NCBI RefSeq assembly: GCF_001548055.1
Contig: NZ_AP014724.1
Coordinates: 1,116,001-1,180,000, forward strand
Source: Sulfurospirillum cavolei
GTDB taxonomy: Bacteria; Campylobacterota; Campylobacteria; Campylobacterales; Sulfurospirillaceae
DNA: 64,000 nucleotides
Direction of reading: 5' to 3'
In this document: positions 43,444 to 51,837 of the stretch, one piece after another
How positions within the stretch are numbered: the first letter of the stretch is position 1
How the letters are laid out: each line of letters opens with the position of its first letter
The notes under the pieces: model-generated
Database searches by the model: none
What the model was told of the DNA's origin: nothing
The model's input: the letters and a program-made list of their open reading frames with translations, nothing else
Made by a program: the position numbers and the translations under genes

Positions 43444-45531
43444 ATGCGTTTTTTAGTATTTTCTTTACTGCTTTTTTCTTTATACGTCCATGCAAGTGAA
43501 GTCGCGTTAAGCCAAGAAGAACAACGTTATATTGAGGCTCATCCGATCGTTCGCGTTCACAATGAAATGGATTGGGCACCTTTTAATTTTTACGAAGACG
43601 GACGTGCGCAAGGTCTTTCGATTGACGTGATGAATCTCATTGCCCAAAAAGTCGGCTTAAAAGTGGCGTATATTACGGGATATTCATGGAATGAATTTTT
43701 GACCATGATGCAAGAAAACCGTCTCGATGTTATGCTCAATATCGTGAAAAACGATGATCGCGAAAAATACCTTCTGTTTACGACACCCTACCAATCGGTC
43801 GCTCATTGCGTCGTCGTGCGTAACGACGCTCCTTGGAAAATCGAAACGATTCACGATATTCTTGATAAAAATATCGCTATGGAAGAAGGGTTTTTTAACC
43901 ATCATTATTTAAAAGAACATTATCCAAACACGCGTTTAGCACTCAAAAAAGATACCTTATCGACGTTGCAAAGTATTGCTTATAACGAAACCGATTTAAC
44001 CGTGGGTTTGGTTCCGGTGGAAACGTATATGATTAAGCGTTACGGACTGAGTAACCTAAAAGTGATCGGCATTTCCGACGAAGAGCTTTTTGCGCCCAAA
44101 GATTTGCGCATCGCGACGTCTGTCCACAACCCTATTTTGATCGGTATTCTTCAAAAAGGTTTGGATGCGATCGATCAGGAAGAGCACAACCGTATTGTCA
44201 ATCTTTGGGTCAATACGAACGTTGAAAAAATTATGAATTGGAATTTGCTGTTTAAAATTCTGTTTTTCTTTTTCTTGATTTTAGCGGGAACGCTTTTTTG
44301 GACATGGCGTGTCAAGAGGATTCAAAAAGAGCTCGCCGATTCTAATTTTTTAATGCACAATCTCTTAAACGCTATCCCAAATCCTCTTTTTTATAAAGAC
44401 GCAAACGGTGTTTTTTTAGGATTTAACCAAGCATACGAAGAGGCTTTCGGTATCGATTCTACACGTTTTATCGGAAAAACCGTTTTAGAATTAGACTACT
44501 TACCGCCGGAAGATCGTTTAAAATACCATCAAGAGGACATGCGCGTCATTCAACACACGCTTTCGTTAAAGCGTGAACAAGAGATGGTTTTTCACGACGG
44601 AGCCGTGCACCATACGCTCTATTCGGTAAACGGTTTTAAAACGTTAAAGGGAAAACCGGGCGGATTAATCGGCATTTTTGCCGATATTTCGCATCAAAAA
44701 AAGATTCAGCACGAACTTGAAATTTCCCGTCACGAAGTCGAAGAGAGTCATAAAGCGATGAAAGATTCGATTGAATATGCCTCCTTGATCCAACACTCTT
44801 TACTACCGAATCATACGCTTTTACACCGTTTTTTTTCCGATTATTGCGTGCTTTGGCAACCTAAAGACATCGTCGGCGGCGATATTTATTTTATGGAAGA
44901 GTTTGACGACGGTAACACTTTACTCGTGATGATGATGGATTGTACCGGACACGGCGTTGCGGGAGCTTTTGTGACCATGCTTGTCAAAGCCGTCGAACGA
45001 CAGATTATCGCTACGATCCGTCATCAACACGAACGCATCAGTCCGGCCAAAATCCTCGGTATTTTCAATCAAAGTATCAAGCATCTTTTAAATCAACACG
45101 ATGCCACGGCCATCAATAATGCGGGGTTTGACGGTGCCGTTCTTCTTTACGACAAAATCAATGCAAGCATCACGTTTGCGGGCGCATGTTTACCGCTTTT
45201 TTACCTTCAAGCCGACGGTACGCTGAGCATCCTCCAAGGCGATAAACACTCCGTAGGGTACAAACAGTCACAGACCGAATACGTTTTTCGCGAACACGTA
45301 TTATCCGTCGAACAAGGCATGCGTTTTTATATCACAAGTGACGGCTTTTGGGATCAAAACGGCGGTGAAAAAGGCTTTCCTTTCGGCAAAAGTAGATTTA
45401 CGGACCTACTCAAAAAGCACTATCAAGAGCCGTTTGCCGATCAAGAAGAAATTTTTATTAAGACCTTGCATGCGTATCAGGGAAGTGAAATACGAAGCGA
45501 CGATATTATGCTTATCGGCTTAAAAATCTAA
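43444..45531 (+). CDS. SiaA-like sensor phosphatase: solute-binding, PAS and SpoIIE domains
   Basis: A 695-residue membrane protein. In order: a signal peptide (1-17); a periplasmic family 3 solute-binding domain (about 20-258, WAPFNFYEDGRAQGLSIDVMNLIA and the two-lobe pattern); one membrane helix (about 265-290); a PAS domain (about 297-415, IPNPLFYKDANGVFLGFNQAYEEAF); a short coiled coil; and a SpoIIE/PP2C phosphatase (about 450-695) with metal-binding Asp residues in IVGGDIYF, MMDCTGHGVAGAF, SDGFWDQNGG and SDDIMLIGL. The two following genes encode SiaB- and SiaC-like proteins, so this is the SiaA equivalent that would dephosphorylate SiaC when its ligand binds. The sensor architecture differs from Pseudomonas SiaA. 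Confidence 0.87.
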   Translation: MRFLVFSLLLFSLYVHASEVALSQEEQRYIEAHPIVRVHNEMDWAPFNFYEDGRAQGLSIDVMNLIAQKVGLKVAYITGYSWNEFLTMMQENRLDVMLNIVKNDDREKYLLFTTPYQSVAHCVVVRNDAPWKIETIHDILDKNIAMEEGFFNHHYLKEHYPNTRLALKKDTLSTLQSIAYNETDLTVGLVPVETYMIKRYGLSNLKVIGISDEELFAPKDLRIATSVHNPILIGILQKGLDAIDQEEHNRIVNLWVNTNVEKIMNWNLLFKILFFFFLILAGTLFWTWRVKRIQKELADSNFLMHNLLNAIPNPLFYKDANGVFLGFNQAYEEAFGIDSTRFIGKTVLELDYLPPEDRLKYHQEDMRVIQHTLSLKREQEMVFHDGAVHHTLYSVNGFKTLKGKPGGLIGIFADISHQKKIQHELEISRHEVEESHKAMKDSIEYASLIQHSLLPNHTLLHRFFSDYCVLWQPKDIVGGDIYFMEEFDDGNTLLVMMMDCTGHGVAGAFVTMLVKAVERQIIATIRHQHERISPAKILGIFNQSIKHLLNQHDATAINNAGFDGAVLLYDKINASITFAGACLPLFYLQADGTLSILQGDKHSVGYKQSQTEYVFREHVLSVEQGMRFYITSDGFWDQNGGEKGFPFGKSRFTDLLKKHYQEPFADQEEIFIKTLHAYQGSEIRSDDIMLIGLKI

Positions 45532-45601
45532 TCCATCAACAGAGGAAAAACGGCAACGTTTTAAACCCGATCTTCATCAAAAGCAAAAAGGAGCGTTTGC
45601 G

Positions 45602-46168
45602 ATGATAGACATCAACACCGTTAAAAAATTAATCGAAAAAGACGGTATCGTCTTTTTAGCGTACGGCGGTTTTTTATCGCAAACGCTGATTGCCGGCATG
45701 ACGGAAGCTTTGGAAAAAGAGGCAAAAGAGAGTGATTTGGGGATGAACGAGTCGACGAATATTTTTACGATTTTTATCGAATTGGCACAAAATATGATGA
45801 ACTACTCTAAATCCAAAAACGAACAAGCCTCTTCCCATAAGTCTGAGGGCTTGATCCTTGTAGGCAAGCGTCCCAAGCAAAAGCACTATTACGTCTTGAG
45901 TCAAAATATCATCACGCTTGAAGATAAAGAAAAGATATTGCCCAAGCTTGCCGAACTCGTTTTAATGAATAAAGAGACGATTAAACAGCGGTACAGAGAG
46001 CTTCGAAAAAGCGGTAGCGAAGCGCATCATAAAGGCGGAGGTATCGGGTTTTACGAAATTGCCAAACGAAGCGATAAACTCTCCTACGAGTTTGAACAAA
46101 TTAGTGAAAAGAGGTATTATTTTCGCATGAAAGCTATTATTAAAACACAAGGGAAGGCATTGATATGA
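45602..46168 (+). CDS. SiaB-like protein kinase (DUF6272)
   Basis: A 188-residue GHKL-fold protein. The N-box is ELAQNMMNYS (E and N conserved) and the G-box is GGGIGFYEIAKRS, so ATP binding is plausible. SiaB in Pseudomonas phosphorylates SiaC and thereby inactivates it. Here it lies between the SiaA-like phosphatase and the SiaC-like gene and overlaps the latter by four bases. A ribosome site AAGGAG precedes its start. Function by analogy; I see no direct evidence of kinase activity. Confidence 0.82.
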   Translation: MIDINTVKKLIEKDGIVFLAYGGFLSQTLIAGMTEALEKEAKESDLGMNESTNIFTIFIELAQNMMNYSKSKNEQASSHKSEGLILVGKRPKQKHYYVLSQNIITLEDKEKILPKLAELVLMNKETIKQRYRELRKSGSEAHHKGGGIGFYEIAKRSDKLSYEFEQISEKRYYFRMKAIIKTQGKALI

Positions 46169-46542
46169 ATAATTTAAAAGTTGAAGCCACGCAATATACT
46201 CCTGAAATTTCATTGGAGACTTATGGGGAAATTAACATTAAAGGCAAATCGTACCCTGAAAATACGTTTGAGTTTTACATGCCGATTTTGCATTGGCTCC
46301 GAACGTATTTTACCGAGCCAAATGCTCCTCATTCGTTGACCGTTAATGTCGAAATTACCTATTTTAATTCCAGTAGCTCCAAACTCTTCTTCGATTTTTT
46401 CGATATTTTAGATGCGAATAAAGAAAATTTCAATATCACCGTCAATTGGATTTTTGATCGCGAAAATGATAGTGCCAAAGAAGCGGGCGAAGATTTTATC
46501 GAAGATTTTACCGATCTTACGATTCATCTGATTGCAAAATAG
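46165..46542 (+). CDS. SiaC-like regulatory phosphoprotein (DUF1987)
   Basis: A 125-residue protein of the DUF1987/SiaC type. The conserved YFNSSSSK motif (residues 66-73) is where the regulatory residue sits in Pseudomonas SiaC (Thr68 there); here serines occupy the site. FEFYMPILHWL and a Asn/Ser-rich turn match the family. In Pseudomonas the unphosphorylated form binds and activates the diguanylate cyclase SiaD. Here the next gene encodes an HD-GYP phosphodiesterase, which is then the likely target. Confidence 0.84.
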   Translation: MNNLKVEATQYTPEISLETYGEINIKGKSYPENTFEFYMPILHWLRTYFTEPNAPHSLTVNVEITYFNSSSSKLFFDFFDILDANKENFNITVNWIFDRENDSAKEAGEDFIEDFTDLTIHLIAK

Positions 46543-46551
46543 AGGCATAGC

Positions 46552-47358
46552 ATGGAACAACATGAAGTGATTAAAAACCCTTTGATCGTTGAATTGGAAC
46601 TCTTACGCGTCAATTTCGATAAAACAACGGAAAAACTGATTAAAGATATTCAACGTCATGAAAAAATTATGACCAAAGCCGATAAGCGTCAAAAGCAAGA
46701 GTACGACGAACTTCAGCGTAAATTTGCCGAAGTGGAAGCTTTGCAGCAAGAGATTGAAGAGACGCAAAAAGAGGTTATTTTTACGATGGGTTCGATCGGT
46801 GAAAGTCGTAGCAAAGAGACGGGAAACCATGTGCGTCGCGTTGCCGAATACTCAAAGCTAATTGCCTTGCATTACGGGCTTTGCGAACACGATGCCGAGA
46901 TGCTCAAACAAGCAAGTCCGATGCACGATATAGGCAAAGTCGCCATTCCGGACGCCATCTTAAATAAGCCAGGCAAACTCACGCCCGAAGAGTTTGAAAT
47001 CATGAAAAAACATACGGAGCTTGGCTATGACATGTTAAAACATTCGCATCGCCCCCTCCTCCAAACGGCGGCAATCGTCGCCTACGAACACCATGAAAAA
47101 TTTAACGGACAAGGGTATCCGCGCGGACTTAAAGGAGCCAATATCCATATATACAGCCGTATTACCGCATTTGCAGACGTCTTTGACGCTTTGGGAAACC
47201 AACGATGCTATAAACCGGCGTGGAAAGACGAAGATATCTTTAACTTATTTCATCAAGAACGAGGGGAACACTTCGACCCTAAAATCGTTGATATTTTTTT
47301 CAAAAACTTGAGTGAATTTTTATATATCAGAGAGATGTTTAAAGATCCTGTTGCATAA
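46552..47358 (+). CDS. HD-GYP phosphodiesterase with N-terminal coiled coil, SiaD-position gene
   Basis: A 268-residue soluble protein. Residues 1-75 form a charged coiled coil, and the rest is an HD-GYP domain with a complete set of metal residues: HVRRVAEYS, MHDIGKVAIP, KKHTELGYDM, EHHEKFNGQGYPRGL and FADVFDAL. It should degrade c-di-GMP to pGpG or GMP. Its location as the fourth gene of a Sia-type operon and its N-terminal coiled coil, which resembles the position of the SiaC-binding stalk of SiaD, suggest SiaC controls it. That makes the module the reverse of the Pseudomonas one. A terminator follows. Confidence 0.88.
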   Translation: MEQHEVIKNPLIVELELLRVNFDKTTEKLIKDIQRHEKIMTKADKRQKQEYDELQRKFAEVEALQQEIEETQKEVIFTMGSIGESRSKETGNHVRRVAEYSKLIALHYGLCEHDAEMLKQASPMHDIGKVAIPDAILNKPGKLTPEEFEIMKKHTELGYDMLKHSHRPLLQTAAIVAYEHHEKFNGQGYPRGLKGANIHIYSRITAFADVFDALGNQRCYKPAWKDEDIFNLFHQERGEHFDPKIVDIFFKNLSEFLYIREMFKDPVA

Positions 47359-47377: not shown

Positions 47378-47407
47378 GCAAAGCCCCGAAAACGGGGCTT
47401 TGCTTTT
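47378..47407. terminator. Strong terminator after the HD-GYP gene
   Basis: A perfect eleven-base-pair stem (47378-47388 with 47393-47403) with an AAAA loop is followed by TTTT. It lies between the converging Sia-like and fdh operons and could serve both. Confidence 0.82.
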
Positions 47408-47427
47408 GACATGTAAGCCTACATGTA
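47408..47427. repeat. Two KACATGTM motifs in a facing pair
   Basis: GACATGTA at 47408-47415 and TACATGTA at 47420-47427 form an inverted repeat with seven-base arms and a four-base gap, directly after the terminator and before the fdhC stop. It is one of two inverted pairs of the dispersed motif I see in this window. Confidence 0.6.
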
Positions 47428-48972: not shown

Positions 48973-51837
48973 TTACGCTTTTTCCACACGGCATAGACCC
49001 GCGTTGAACTCTGAGATTTGGGTAATCGGGTCAAAGCCGTAGTTAACGATCGTATTGGAACTTTCACCGATCGTATACGGACGTGCGCCTTCAGGATAAT
49101 TTGCACTCAAATCGACCCCTTGCATAATACCCGCAAAGTTGTACGGCATACAAATACGATCCGGCGTTACGCTACGGTTGTAGTGAACCCGTACCTTAAT
49201 CTTCGTACCCTGAGGCGCGTGAATCCACATCATTCCCTTATCTTCGATGCCATATTTGGAAGCAAGATCTGGGTGAATATTGGCAAACATCTCCGGCGTA
49301 ATGCTTGAGAGGTATTTACTCGTTCGCTCTAACATACCAGCCCCTGAGAGGTTGACTAAGCGCATAGACGTTAGGATCGTCGGGAACTCTTTGGACCAGT
49401 CTTGTTTGGTTTGCTCAGAGATGTAACGTGTTGCAACCCTAAAGTTATTGGCTTGATCCGGTAGTGCCGGATATTTTTGTACCAAATCCCAACGTGGAGA
49501 GTGAATAGGCTCTCTATGAACCGGTACGGGATCTGGGAATTCCCAAACAATCGTACGTGCCCTTGCATTTCCGTAGACGCAAACGCCATACTCTCGAGCG
49601 TATTTTTGAATAATACCGCTAAAGTCCATCGCCCAACTTGGTCCCATTTGCGCTTTTTCTTCTTCACTAAGCGTAATACCGAGCACTTTTTCGATATTGG
49701 CTTTGGTAAGTTGTGGGTAACCGCCTTGGATTTTTTGTCCCGGAAGCGTCACGGTTTCATCGGCAAGTAAATTATCACCGTTATGCTCAACACCGAAACG
49801 ATTTCGAAAGCCCAAGCCGCCTTCATTGACCGGTTTAGAGGCATCGTAAAGGATCGGCGAACCCGGATGTTTTTCATCCCAGCACGGCCACGGAAGTCCG
49901 TAATATTCGCCTTCCATTTCGCCGCGACCTTTGAGCGTCAACGGATCGAAGAGATGCCAGTTTTCTTGATGTTTGCGCAGACGCTCGGGCGTCCAACCGG
50001 AAAGTCCGATACTTTTAACCGTACGAGCAATCTCACGTACCGCATCGTCCGGCCATACAAAATCGTTTTTATACTGAACGACGTTACCGTTTTCGGCACG
50101 CATTTTCATACCCTTGACGTACTCATCGTAAAATCCGAATTTTTTCGCAAACTCGAACATCACTTCATGATCGGCTTTGCTTTCATACAGCGGCTTAACG
50201 ACTTGGGAACGCCATTGGGCGGAACGATTGGTAGCAGAAAGCGTTCCTTCGCACTCAAATTGCGTTGCAACCGGCAAGATATAGATACCGTCTTTTCGAT
50301 CGGTAATAATTGCCGCTTCATTCACAAACGGTTCGGCTACGATTAACATGTCAAGCTTATCGATGGCTTCTTTGATTTTCACCTGCTGAGACATCGAGGT
50401 AATTCCCGTTCCTTGTACCCAAAGCACGCGAATCGGAGCGGAAGAGGTCGTTTTTTCTTCTTGTAAAACACCTTGCCACCACTTCGCAAGTGAGAAACCT
50501 TTGGCGTGCATCCATTTACGCTCACCCTTATCGTCAAGATCAGGGTGGAAACGGTTTTGCATAGACTCGAAGCTAACACCCCATGTTTTACAATAGTACT
50601 GCCATGCGGCTTTATCCAAACCGTAGTACCCCGGTAAACTGTCAGAGAGGTTTGCCATATCGGTAGCACCTTGAACGTTATCGTGACCGCGGATAATATT
50701 ACATCCGCCTCCCGGACGTGCCGCATTACCAGTAACAAGTGAAAGAATTGGAAGGATACGCGTATTGGAGCTTCCTACAGAGTGTTGCGTAATACCGAGT
50801 GACCATGCAATGCTTGCGGGTTTGGTTTTAGCGTAAAGTTCTGCAACCTGTTGGATTAGCTCAATAGAAGCACCGGTAACATTGGAGGTCTCTTCAGGCG
50901 TCCATTTAGCAGCTTCGGCTCTGATTTGATCCATCGCATAAGTTCTATGCTCGATAAAATCTTTATCTTCCCAACCGTTTTTAAAGATTACATGTAAAAG
51001 TCCATAGGCAAACGCAATGTCAGTACCAGGACGAATACGCACGTAAATATCCGCTTTAGCAGCACTTCTTGTAAAGATAGGATCGACGACGATCAACTTC
51101 GCGCCTCTATCTTTGGCTTGTAGGAAATGTTTAAATCCGATTGGATTGGCAACGGCAGAGTTGGCTCCGACCATCATAATTAACTTAGAATTCTCAACAA
51201 CATCACCAAAGTGATTTGTCATAGCACCATAACCCCATGTATTTGCCGCACCGGCAACAGAAGCGCTATGTCAGATTCTAGCTACGTGATCGATATTATT
51301 TGTGCCCCAAAACGCGGCAAATTTTCTAAAGTAATACGATTGTTGGTTGTTAAATTTAGCCGAACCCAACATCATCAATGTGTCAGGACCGTTCTCTTCT
51401 CTAATTTTTAACATTTTAGAAGAGATCTCATTTAACGCTTGTTCCCACGTTAAACGTTTCCATTGTCCATTCTCTTTTTTCATCGGGTACTTGATACGTT
51501 GTTTGGACTTGGTCAAATCGATTTGATCCGTACCCTTACAACAGTGGCTTCCCTCGCTGATCGGGTGGTCGTGTGCGGGTTCTTGTCTTACCCATACGCC
51601 GTTATGCACTTCGGCTTTGATGCCGCAACCTGCCGAACAGATCGAGCAGATCGTTTTAACCGTTTTTGAGCCTGGGAACGGGTTTTTAACCTCTTCCGCA
51701 CTCGCCTCTCTGATCGCATCTTCTTTGGCTAGAAGATTTCCCGCTCCAAAACTAGCACTTCCCAGAGCCGCCATTTTTAAAAATGAGCGTCTTCCGATTT
51801 TGCTAGAGGAGAGTATGGGGTTTTCTGTTTTACTCAT
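48973..51837 (-). CDS. fdhA: Formate dehydrogenase catalytic subunit, selenocysteine protein with in-frame UGA
   Basis: Oxidises formate to CO2 at a molybdenum or tungsten bis-pterin centre in the periplasm. About 954 residues when the TGA at 51271-51273 is read as selenocysteine (residue 189). The context HVARI-Sec-HSASVAGAANT matches the catalytic site of known formate dehydrogenases, where Sec or Cys stands. Translation resumes in the same frame and the downstream part is complete (molybdopterin domains, IRPGTDIAFAYGLL, NIIRGHDNVQGATDM). The N-terminus has a twin-arginine signal RRSFLKMAAL and a [4Fe-4S] set CSICSAGCGIK with a later CCKG. A hairpin after the UGA fits a bacterial SECIS. Conventional gene calling splits it at the TGA. 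Confidence 0.93.
51243..51273 (-). promoter_or_regulatory. SECIS-like hairpin with the Sec UGA codon
   Basis: The UGA is at 51273-51271 on the minus strand. Starting 13 bases after it, a five-base-pair stem TTGCC/GGCAA (51257-51253 and 51247-51243) carries the loop GGTGC. A loop beginning GGU at this distance is typical of bacterial SECIS elements, which recruit SelB. Confidence 0.65.

Follow-up and report, generated by a model that had tools for sequence, protein, structure and literature searches.

Can a Sia-type partner switch, characterised for making cyclic di-GMP (c-di-GMP), be wired to an enzyme that degrades it? The question is raised by a locus of Sulfurospirillum cavolei (Campylobacterota) at positions 43444-47358 of the 64,000-nucleotide stretch analysed here (the window; contig NZ_AP014724.1, positions 1,116,001 to 1,180,000), in which all four genes of a putative switch were found in the order siaA, siaB, siaC, HD-GYP gene. 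In the characterised Sia switch, SiaABCD of Pseudomonas aeruginosa (PMC7647112, PMC8457831), the output is the GGDEF cyclase SiaD, whereas the output in the window is, by sequence, an HD-GYP phosphodiesterase. A sequence-only reading of the window had suggested that the switch acts on this enzyme and that the N-terminal coiled coil is where SiaC docks. We find this idea supported by a conserved gene linkage and by a SiaD-type contact motif (the box) in the coiled-coil stalk. We consider it probable, on comparison of these sequences, that SiaC docks on the stalk and thereby controls the HD-GYP enzyme.

The same reading knew of no description of such wiring in Campylobacterota, but its general outline is not wholly new. 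On the basis of gene co-occurrence, a 2022 mBio survey proposed for PP2C/stas_STYK/STAS clusters of several Campylobacterota that a SiaB-like kinase and a PP2C phosphatase sensing the periplasm control "a c-di-GMP turnover enzyme" by way of a STAS protein, with SiaABCD as the precedent (PMC9239204); the HD-GYP protein and the docking site are unspecified in the accessible portion of the survey. Neither an HD-GYP protein as a SiaC target nor the box outside SiaD is described in the literature searched, which leaves out most subscription papers and in which the term DUF1987 occurs in a single paper. General Sia-type control in Campylobacterota had thus already been proposed, and what goes beyond it is the putative docking of an HD-GYP protein via a SiaD-type box.

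A SiaD-type contact motif in the HD-GYP stalk

In the SiaC-SiaD crystal, the SiaD stalk touches SiaC through R74, K77, V78, R80, I81, S82, D83, R84, Y85, Q86, M88, R90 and D91, and T68, the phosphosite residue of SiaC, is bonded by S82 and Q86 (PMC8457831). Querying the PDB with the published contact residues alone retrieved SiaD (7E6G), which has two boxes, VRLERIARISDGFQSMAREQ and RRLEKVARISDRYQQMMRDL, and the HD-GYP stalks (for example RHDKIMARSDKRQQQEYDEL) have a spacing identical to that of the SiaD boxes. The putative SiaC-docking motif of the window protein occupies stalk residues 35-52 (RHEKIMTKADKRQKQEYD; 46654..46707, + strand) in register with the SiaD contacts. It reads R35-H-E-K38-I39-M-T-K-A43-D44-K45-R-Q47-K-Q-E-Y-D52, with an identical or like residue for each of SiaD R74, K77, V78, D83, R84, Q86 and D91, and the pattern R..K[VI]...SD[RK].Q is present in the N-terminal coiled coil with A43 in place of Ser. 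The dock predicted within the coiled coil therefore has sequence support from the SiaD contacts, and it narrows from the roughly 75 residues first envisaged to residues 35-52.

The stalk itself was predicted by AlphaFold2 (AF2) as a single continuous helix over residues 10-84, followed by the catalytic domain. Exactly seven stalk residues are missing in two relatives (L029, L124), which amounts to one heptad, as a coiled coil predicts. The window stalk has one motif per chain and SiaD two; a candidate second box at about residues 54-73 was rejected, the D and Q positions being absent. A phmmer search of the PDB with the stalk alone did not recover SiaD and gave chance coiled-coil matches only. 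Stalk residues D44 and Q47, together with N68-S69-S70 of SiaC, present themselves for a direct test.

The motif and the HD-GYP gene travel with SiaC

Every HD-GYP protein in SiaC loci has the motif (18/18) and none of the HD-GYP relatives in loci without SiaC does (0/79; Fisher 6e-20, a descriptive value since the sequences are related). Among six-frame open reading frames (ORFs), the strict motif gave 30 matches near SiaC (547,000 residues) as against one far from it (632,000 residues), and the lone far match is itself in a kinase only 4.9 kb away from SiaC. When built into a profile (A4), the stalk motif matched 17 of 397 Campylobacterota genomes, 16 of which are among the 20 that contain SiaC (counted when over the family cut-off). 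A weak match (G342, E 5e-4) was discounted; the protein is a hybrid kinase in which Asn replaces Ser, and no SiaC was found in its genome. In the S. cavolei genome, which contains one copy of SiaC, the HD-GYP gene is the sole match of the profile despite the presence of other HD_5 genes. Furthermore, over ten loci the distances of SiaC and those of HD-GYP are correlated with r 0.69 (Mantel p 0.007), whereas the correlation of either with SiaB is weaker (about 0.46). In 46 of 77 SiaC loci, mostly from Pseudomonadota, the regex found no motif nearby, so the box is not universal; the motif profile recovers a few further SiaC loci with looser variants.

Linkage of SiaC to HD-GYP genes, the absence of which had been named beforehand as a refutation, is conserved in several Campylobacterota families. 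A stalked HD-GYP gene adjoins siaC or lies one gene off in nine genomes (G000, G376, G395, G329, G373, G298, G265, G060 and G143). In three more (G039, G040 and G028), the protein so placed is a double-HD HD_5 protein with a length of 452-475 amino acids. A separate HD-GYP search added Sulfurospirillum UBA4058 (L027), a cave metagenome-assembled genome (MAG) contig (L028) and a Sulfurimonas MAG (L029), all with the same SiaC/HD-GYP order. Of the 20 genomes, G209 alone has an intact GGDEF cyclase directly next to SiaC, and by these counts a phosphodiesterase-type output is the usual partner in Campylobacterota. Regex matches to "GGDEF" within SiaC ORFs were rejected as false positives from an AGEDF string. 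As the gene set recurs in relatives, it is not a chance neighbourhood.

The locus is by gene content a Sia-type module with a predicted phosphodiesterase

Pfam and NCBIfam searches agree with the four-gene content assigned by the sequence-only reading, and each of its gene descriptions stood. The SiaA-type sensor phosphatase (43444..45531, + strand) has an N-terminal signal/transmembrane segment, a periplasmic SBP_bac_3 domain (2.8e-22), a transmembrane segment, a PAS domain (PAS_4, 3e-16) and a SpoIIE/PP2C domain (2.8e-16), as expected for a SpoIIE phosphatase with solute-binding and PAS sensors. Its SpoIIE part matches the solved SiaA PP2C domain 6K4E (E 2.5e-48), and the acidic PP2C motifs are all there (GGD at 478-480, D499CTGHG, SD633G and SD686). 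The GHKL-type, SiaB-like protein kinase (DUF6272/NF038262; 45602..46168, + strand) scores 132 bits with family model NF038262 (cut-off 85), lies below the cut-off of the SiaB equivalog model NF038264 (83 vs 225) and has both boxes called earlier, an N-box E60-L-A-Q-N64 and a G-box GGGIG at 146.

The SiaC switch protein (46165..46542, + strand) belongs to DUF1987 (PF09345, E 1.2e-36), and its closest solved relatives are 6KKO/6K4F, the predicted fold matching 6KKO with a TM-score of about 0.9 over SiaC (Foldseek). S69 of the YFNSSSSK motif noted earlier aligns with the Pseudomonas phosphosite T68 and is the predicted phosphosite here. Retained among the SiaC residues that contact SiaD are Y31, Y65, N67, T68 (as Ser), S69, D79 and D114 (Pseudomonas numbering).

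The fourth gene (46552..47358, + strand), foreseen as a coiled-coil HD-GYP protein, encodes an HD_5 domain at residues 84-245 (1.7e-34). All eight metal-ligand positions are intact (E89, H93, H125, D126, H154, H180, H181 and D209), GYP is G188-Y189-P190, and ligand positions and GYP are invariant across 13 relatives. The closest solved relative is PmGH of Persephonella marina (4MCW, E 4.8e-74), followed by 5Z7C (E 5.4e-45). The window protein has the HD-GYP catalytic domain and metal ligands in common with PmGH, but the match starts only at stalk residue 61, leaving the docking-motif part without a counterpart.

With SiaC, SiaB and a sensor PP2C all present, the locus is by gene content a Sia partner-switching module; because its fourth gene is HD_5/HD-GYP and not the diguanylate cyclase SiaD, it is not SiaABCD sensu stricto. 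Like SiaABCD, it combines the sensor PP2C and the SiaB kinase with a SiaC that has an N-[T/S]-S phosphosite, and the gene adjoining siaC encodes a coiled-coil output with the common SiaC-contact motif. Unlike SiaABCD, it has Ser and not Thr as the phosphosite, its SiaA sensor is SBP3 plus PAS, and its NCBIfam scores are at family and not equivalog level.

A model for SiaC control of c-di-GMP degradation

In the mechanism that we propose, a periplasmic ligand (through SBP3) and/or a cytoplasmic PAS cue would set the phosphatase activity of SiaA, and S69 of SiaC would be phosphorylated by SiaB and dephosphorylated by SiaA, a step transferred from Pseudomonas. Unphosphorylated SiaC would then dock at residues 35-52 of the HD-GYP protein, whose stalks would form a parallel dimer; S69 would insert near A43/Q47 in a manner similar to that of T68 at S82/Q86 of SiaD, and phosphorylated SiaC would be unable to dock. 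Docking would order the coiled coil and most likely turn the phosphodiesterase on, in which case the input would lower local c-di-GMP. The sign of the regulation is inferred here, as are the phosphorylation chemistry, the binding and its stoichiometry (one site per chain vs two in SiaD).

Several observations weigh against this model. The equivalent of S82 is Ala (A43) in the window protein and in UBA4058 and Ser in most relatives, and the SiaC contact residues R103, L107 and M75 are not conserved in the window SiaC. Taken as a single sequence, the stalk motif is a weak match (shuffle p 0.04, ungapped BLOSUM comparison with the two SiaD motifs), and given such modest shuffle p values for single stalks the case rests on register and distribution. 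The 397-genome result is partly circular, since profile A4 was derived from SiaC-adjacent proteins; its informative part is the near absence of matches in the 377 genomes without SiaC. Lastly, AF2 modelling of an in-frame SiaC-HD-GYP read-through fusion (TAG read as Gln), our stand-in for the complex, gave a pTM of 0.51 and no confident relative placement of SiaC and HD-GYP. Both folds were recovered, matching 4MCW and 6KKO, and the fusion prediction speaks neither for nor against docking.

On the other side stand direct results: the gene identities, the intact catalytic residues, the conserved linkage, the common motif and its SiaC-specific distribution. They bear on the notion that adjacency is without function and that SiaC acts on an unlinked target, which would agree with the absence of any motif-bearing protein found in four of the 20 SiaC genomes and with the motif protein of G209 (L245, a SpoIIE protein), whose contig yielded no SiaC. 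The conservation of the order across families, the contrast of 18/18 with 0/79 and the single motif protein of the S. cavolei genome make this notion very improbable. Alternatively, SiaC might dock on an HD-GYP protein that is a scaffold or that hydrolyses another nucleotide (cGAMP, pGpG). Some HD-GYP proteins do use 3'3'-cGAMP (compare 5Z7C, which ranks second among the PDB matches), and the motif-bearing SiaC-linked proteins of other loci comprise enzymes unrelated to c-di-GMP, class III cyclases among them; set against these, the c-di-GMP phosphodiesterase PmGH is by far the best match, the ligand residues are all kept and the genome contains 51 GGDEF places, and we regard a scaffold or other substrate as unlikely.

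A closer contest concerns the sign. With the same docking, SiaC could hold the HD-GYP enzyme inactive, so that SiaC dephosphorylation would raise c-di-GMP as it does in Pseudomonas. Inhibition would leave the docking evidence unchanged and preserve the Pseudomonas physiological sign, and it is conceivable because the mechanical coupling differs, the distance from the motif to the HD domain being about 41 residues and that from the SiaD motif to GGDEF about 15. Against inhibition, HD-GYP proteins too are commonly dimeric. The SiaC-SiaD complex is the active form owing to the stabilising effect of SiaC on the parallel stalk dimer (PMC8457831), and for this reason we lean, with reserve, towards activation of the phosphodiesterase by SiaC and treat inhibition as the less probable sign.

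One box in many outputs

The box also occurs in SiaC-adjacent proteins with other output domains. It lies near the N-terminus of HATPase_c kinases (L118:8296-9243, L119:6034-6978, L109:5286-6224 and L108:8659-9639), of GGDEF cyclases (L108, L161, L175, L180, L181, L185, L190, L192, L195 and L203) and of hybrid kinases (L162 and L208). Class III nucleotide cyclases near SiaC have it at the same place with Q for the first R (L115:682-1683 and L117:1926-2927) or in a looser variant (L193:6156-7421); such a motif in class III adenylate/guanylate cyclases would tie the Sia switch to cyclic mononucleotides. A further-varied box, with E for Q, is present in GAF-HD_5 proteins of Pseudomonadota (L177, L184 and L188). 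Some loci have several box proteins after one SiaC, namely a PAS-GGDEF cyclase, a 77-residue stand-alone coiled coil and an HATPase kinase in L108:7396-9639, and a degenerate GGDEF-like protein and an HD-GYP protein in L113:5229-6986. The profile alone also found an unlinked 282-residue protein in G209 (L245:826-1674) with the box ahead of a SpoIIE phosphatase domain, which is possibly a feedback phosphatase recruited to SiaC.

With the box seen in so many unrelated outputs, the simplest reading of the sequences is that it looks like a portable SiaC dock. SiaC would then likely be a general phospho-gated docking hub. Its outputs, each joined to it by a coiled-coil segment of the form R-x-x-[KR]-[IV]-x-x-x-S-D-[KR]-x-Q, would comprise diguanylate cyclases and histidine kinases, HD-GYP proteins of at least two architectures, class III cyclases and one PP2C, sometimes several per SiaC. 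If so, SiaC targets, mostly unannotated as such, would be predictable from sequence via the box, just as the wiring proposed here was read from a short motif of a solved complex, and partner switching could push c-di-GMP in either direction by swapping the stalk's enzyme alone. In HsbA-HsbD and BgrV-BgrR, as cited in PMC8457831, a partner switch sets c-di-GMP turnover; unlike the present module, these systems are cited there as using STAS proteins, not SiaC, with cyclase outputs.

History and organisation of the S. cavolei copy

In Sulfurospirillum UBA4058, a stand-alone REC gene (PF00072; L027:4683-5051) lies between siaA and siaB. Both its ends could be aligned in the window between the same two genes (45532..45601, + strand; global score 64.3 vs a shuffle maximum of 50.7), and by this comparison the interval is the deletion scar of a lost REC gene with its two ends left. 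Relatives such as L118 have the longer order siaA-kinase-REC-siaB-siaC-HD-GYP, beside which the S. cavolei copy looks reduced. Among genomes of the genus with a readable yggS flank, the module comes after yggS in S. cavolei and UBA4058 (G799, matched by its contig coordinates) only, no module match being found there in the others, and the 397-genome sample has no SiaC in other genomes of the genus. This distribution suggests that the module was gained or kept patchily.

The siaB and siaC genes overlap by 4 nt and a 9-nt gap separates siaC from the HD-GYP gene, so one transcript is likely. Promoter and terminator patterns were not significantly over-represented in a pattern scan, and the operon is accordingly deduced from gene spacing. 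At 47379-47408, 3' of the HD-GYP gene, a GC-rich inverted repeat (AAAGCCCCGAAAACGGGGCTTT) followed by a T-rich run is terminator-like by eye, with no + strand report from the pattern scan at this position.

Further along the window (48973-51837, - strand), a formate-dehydrogenase-like molybdoprotein is split into two ORFs under table 11, and its in-frame TGA at residue 189 (DHVARI-U-HSASVAG) is compatible with a selenocysteine codon.

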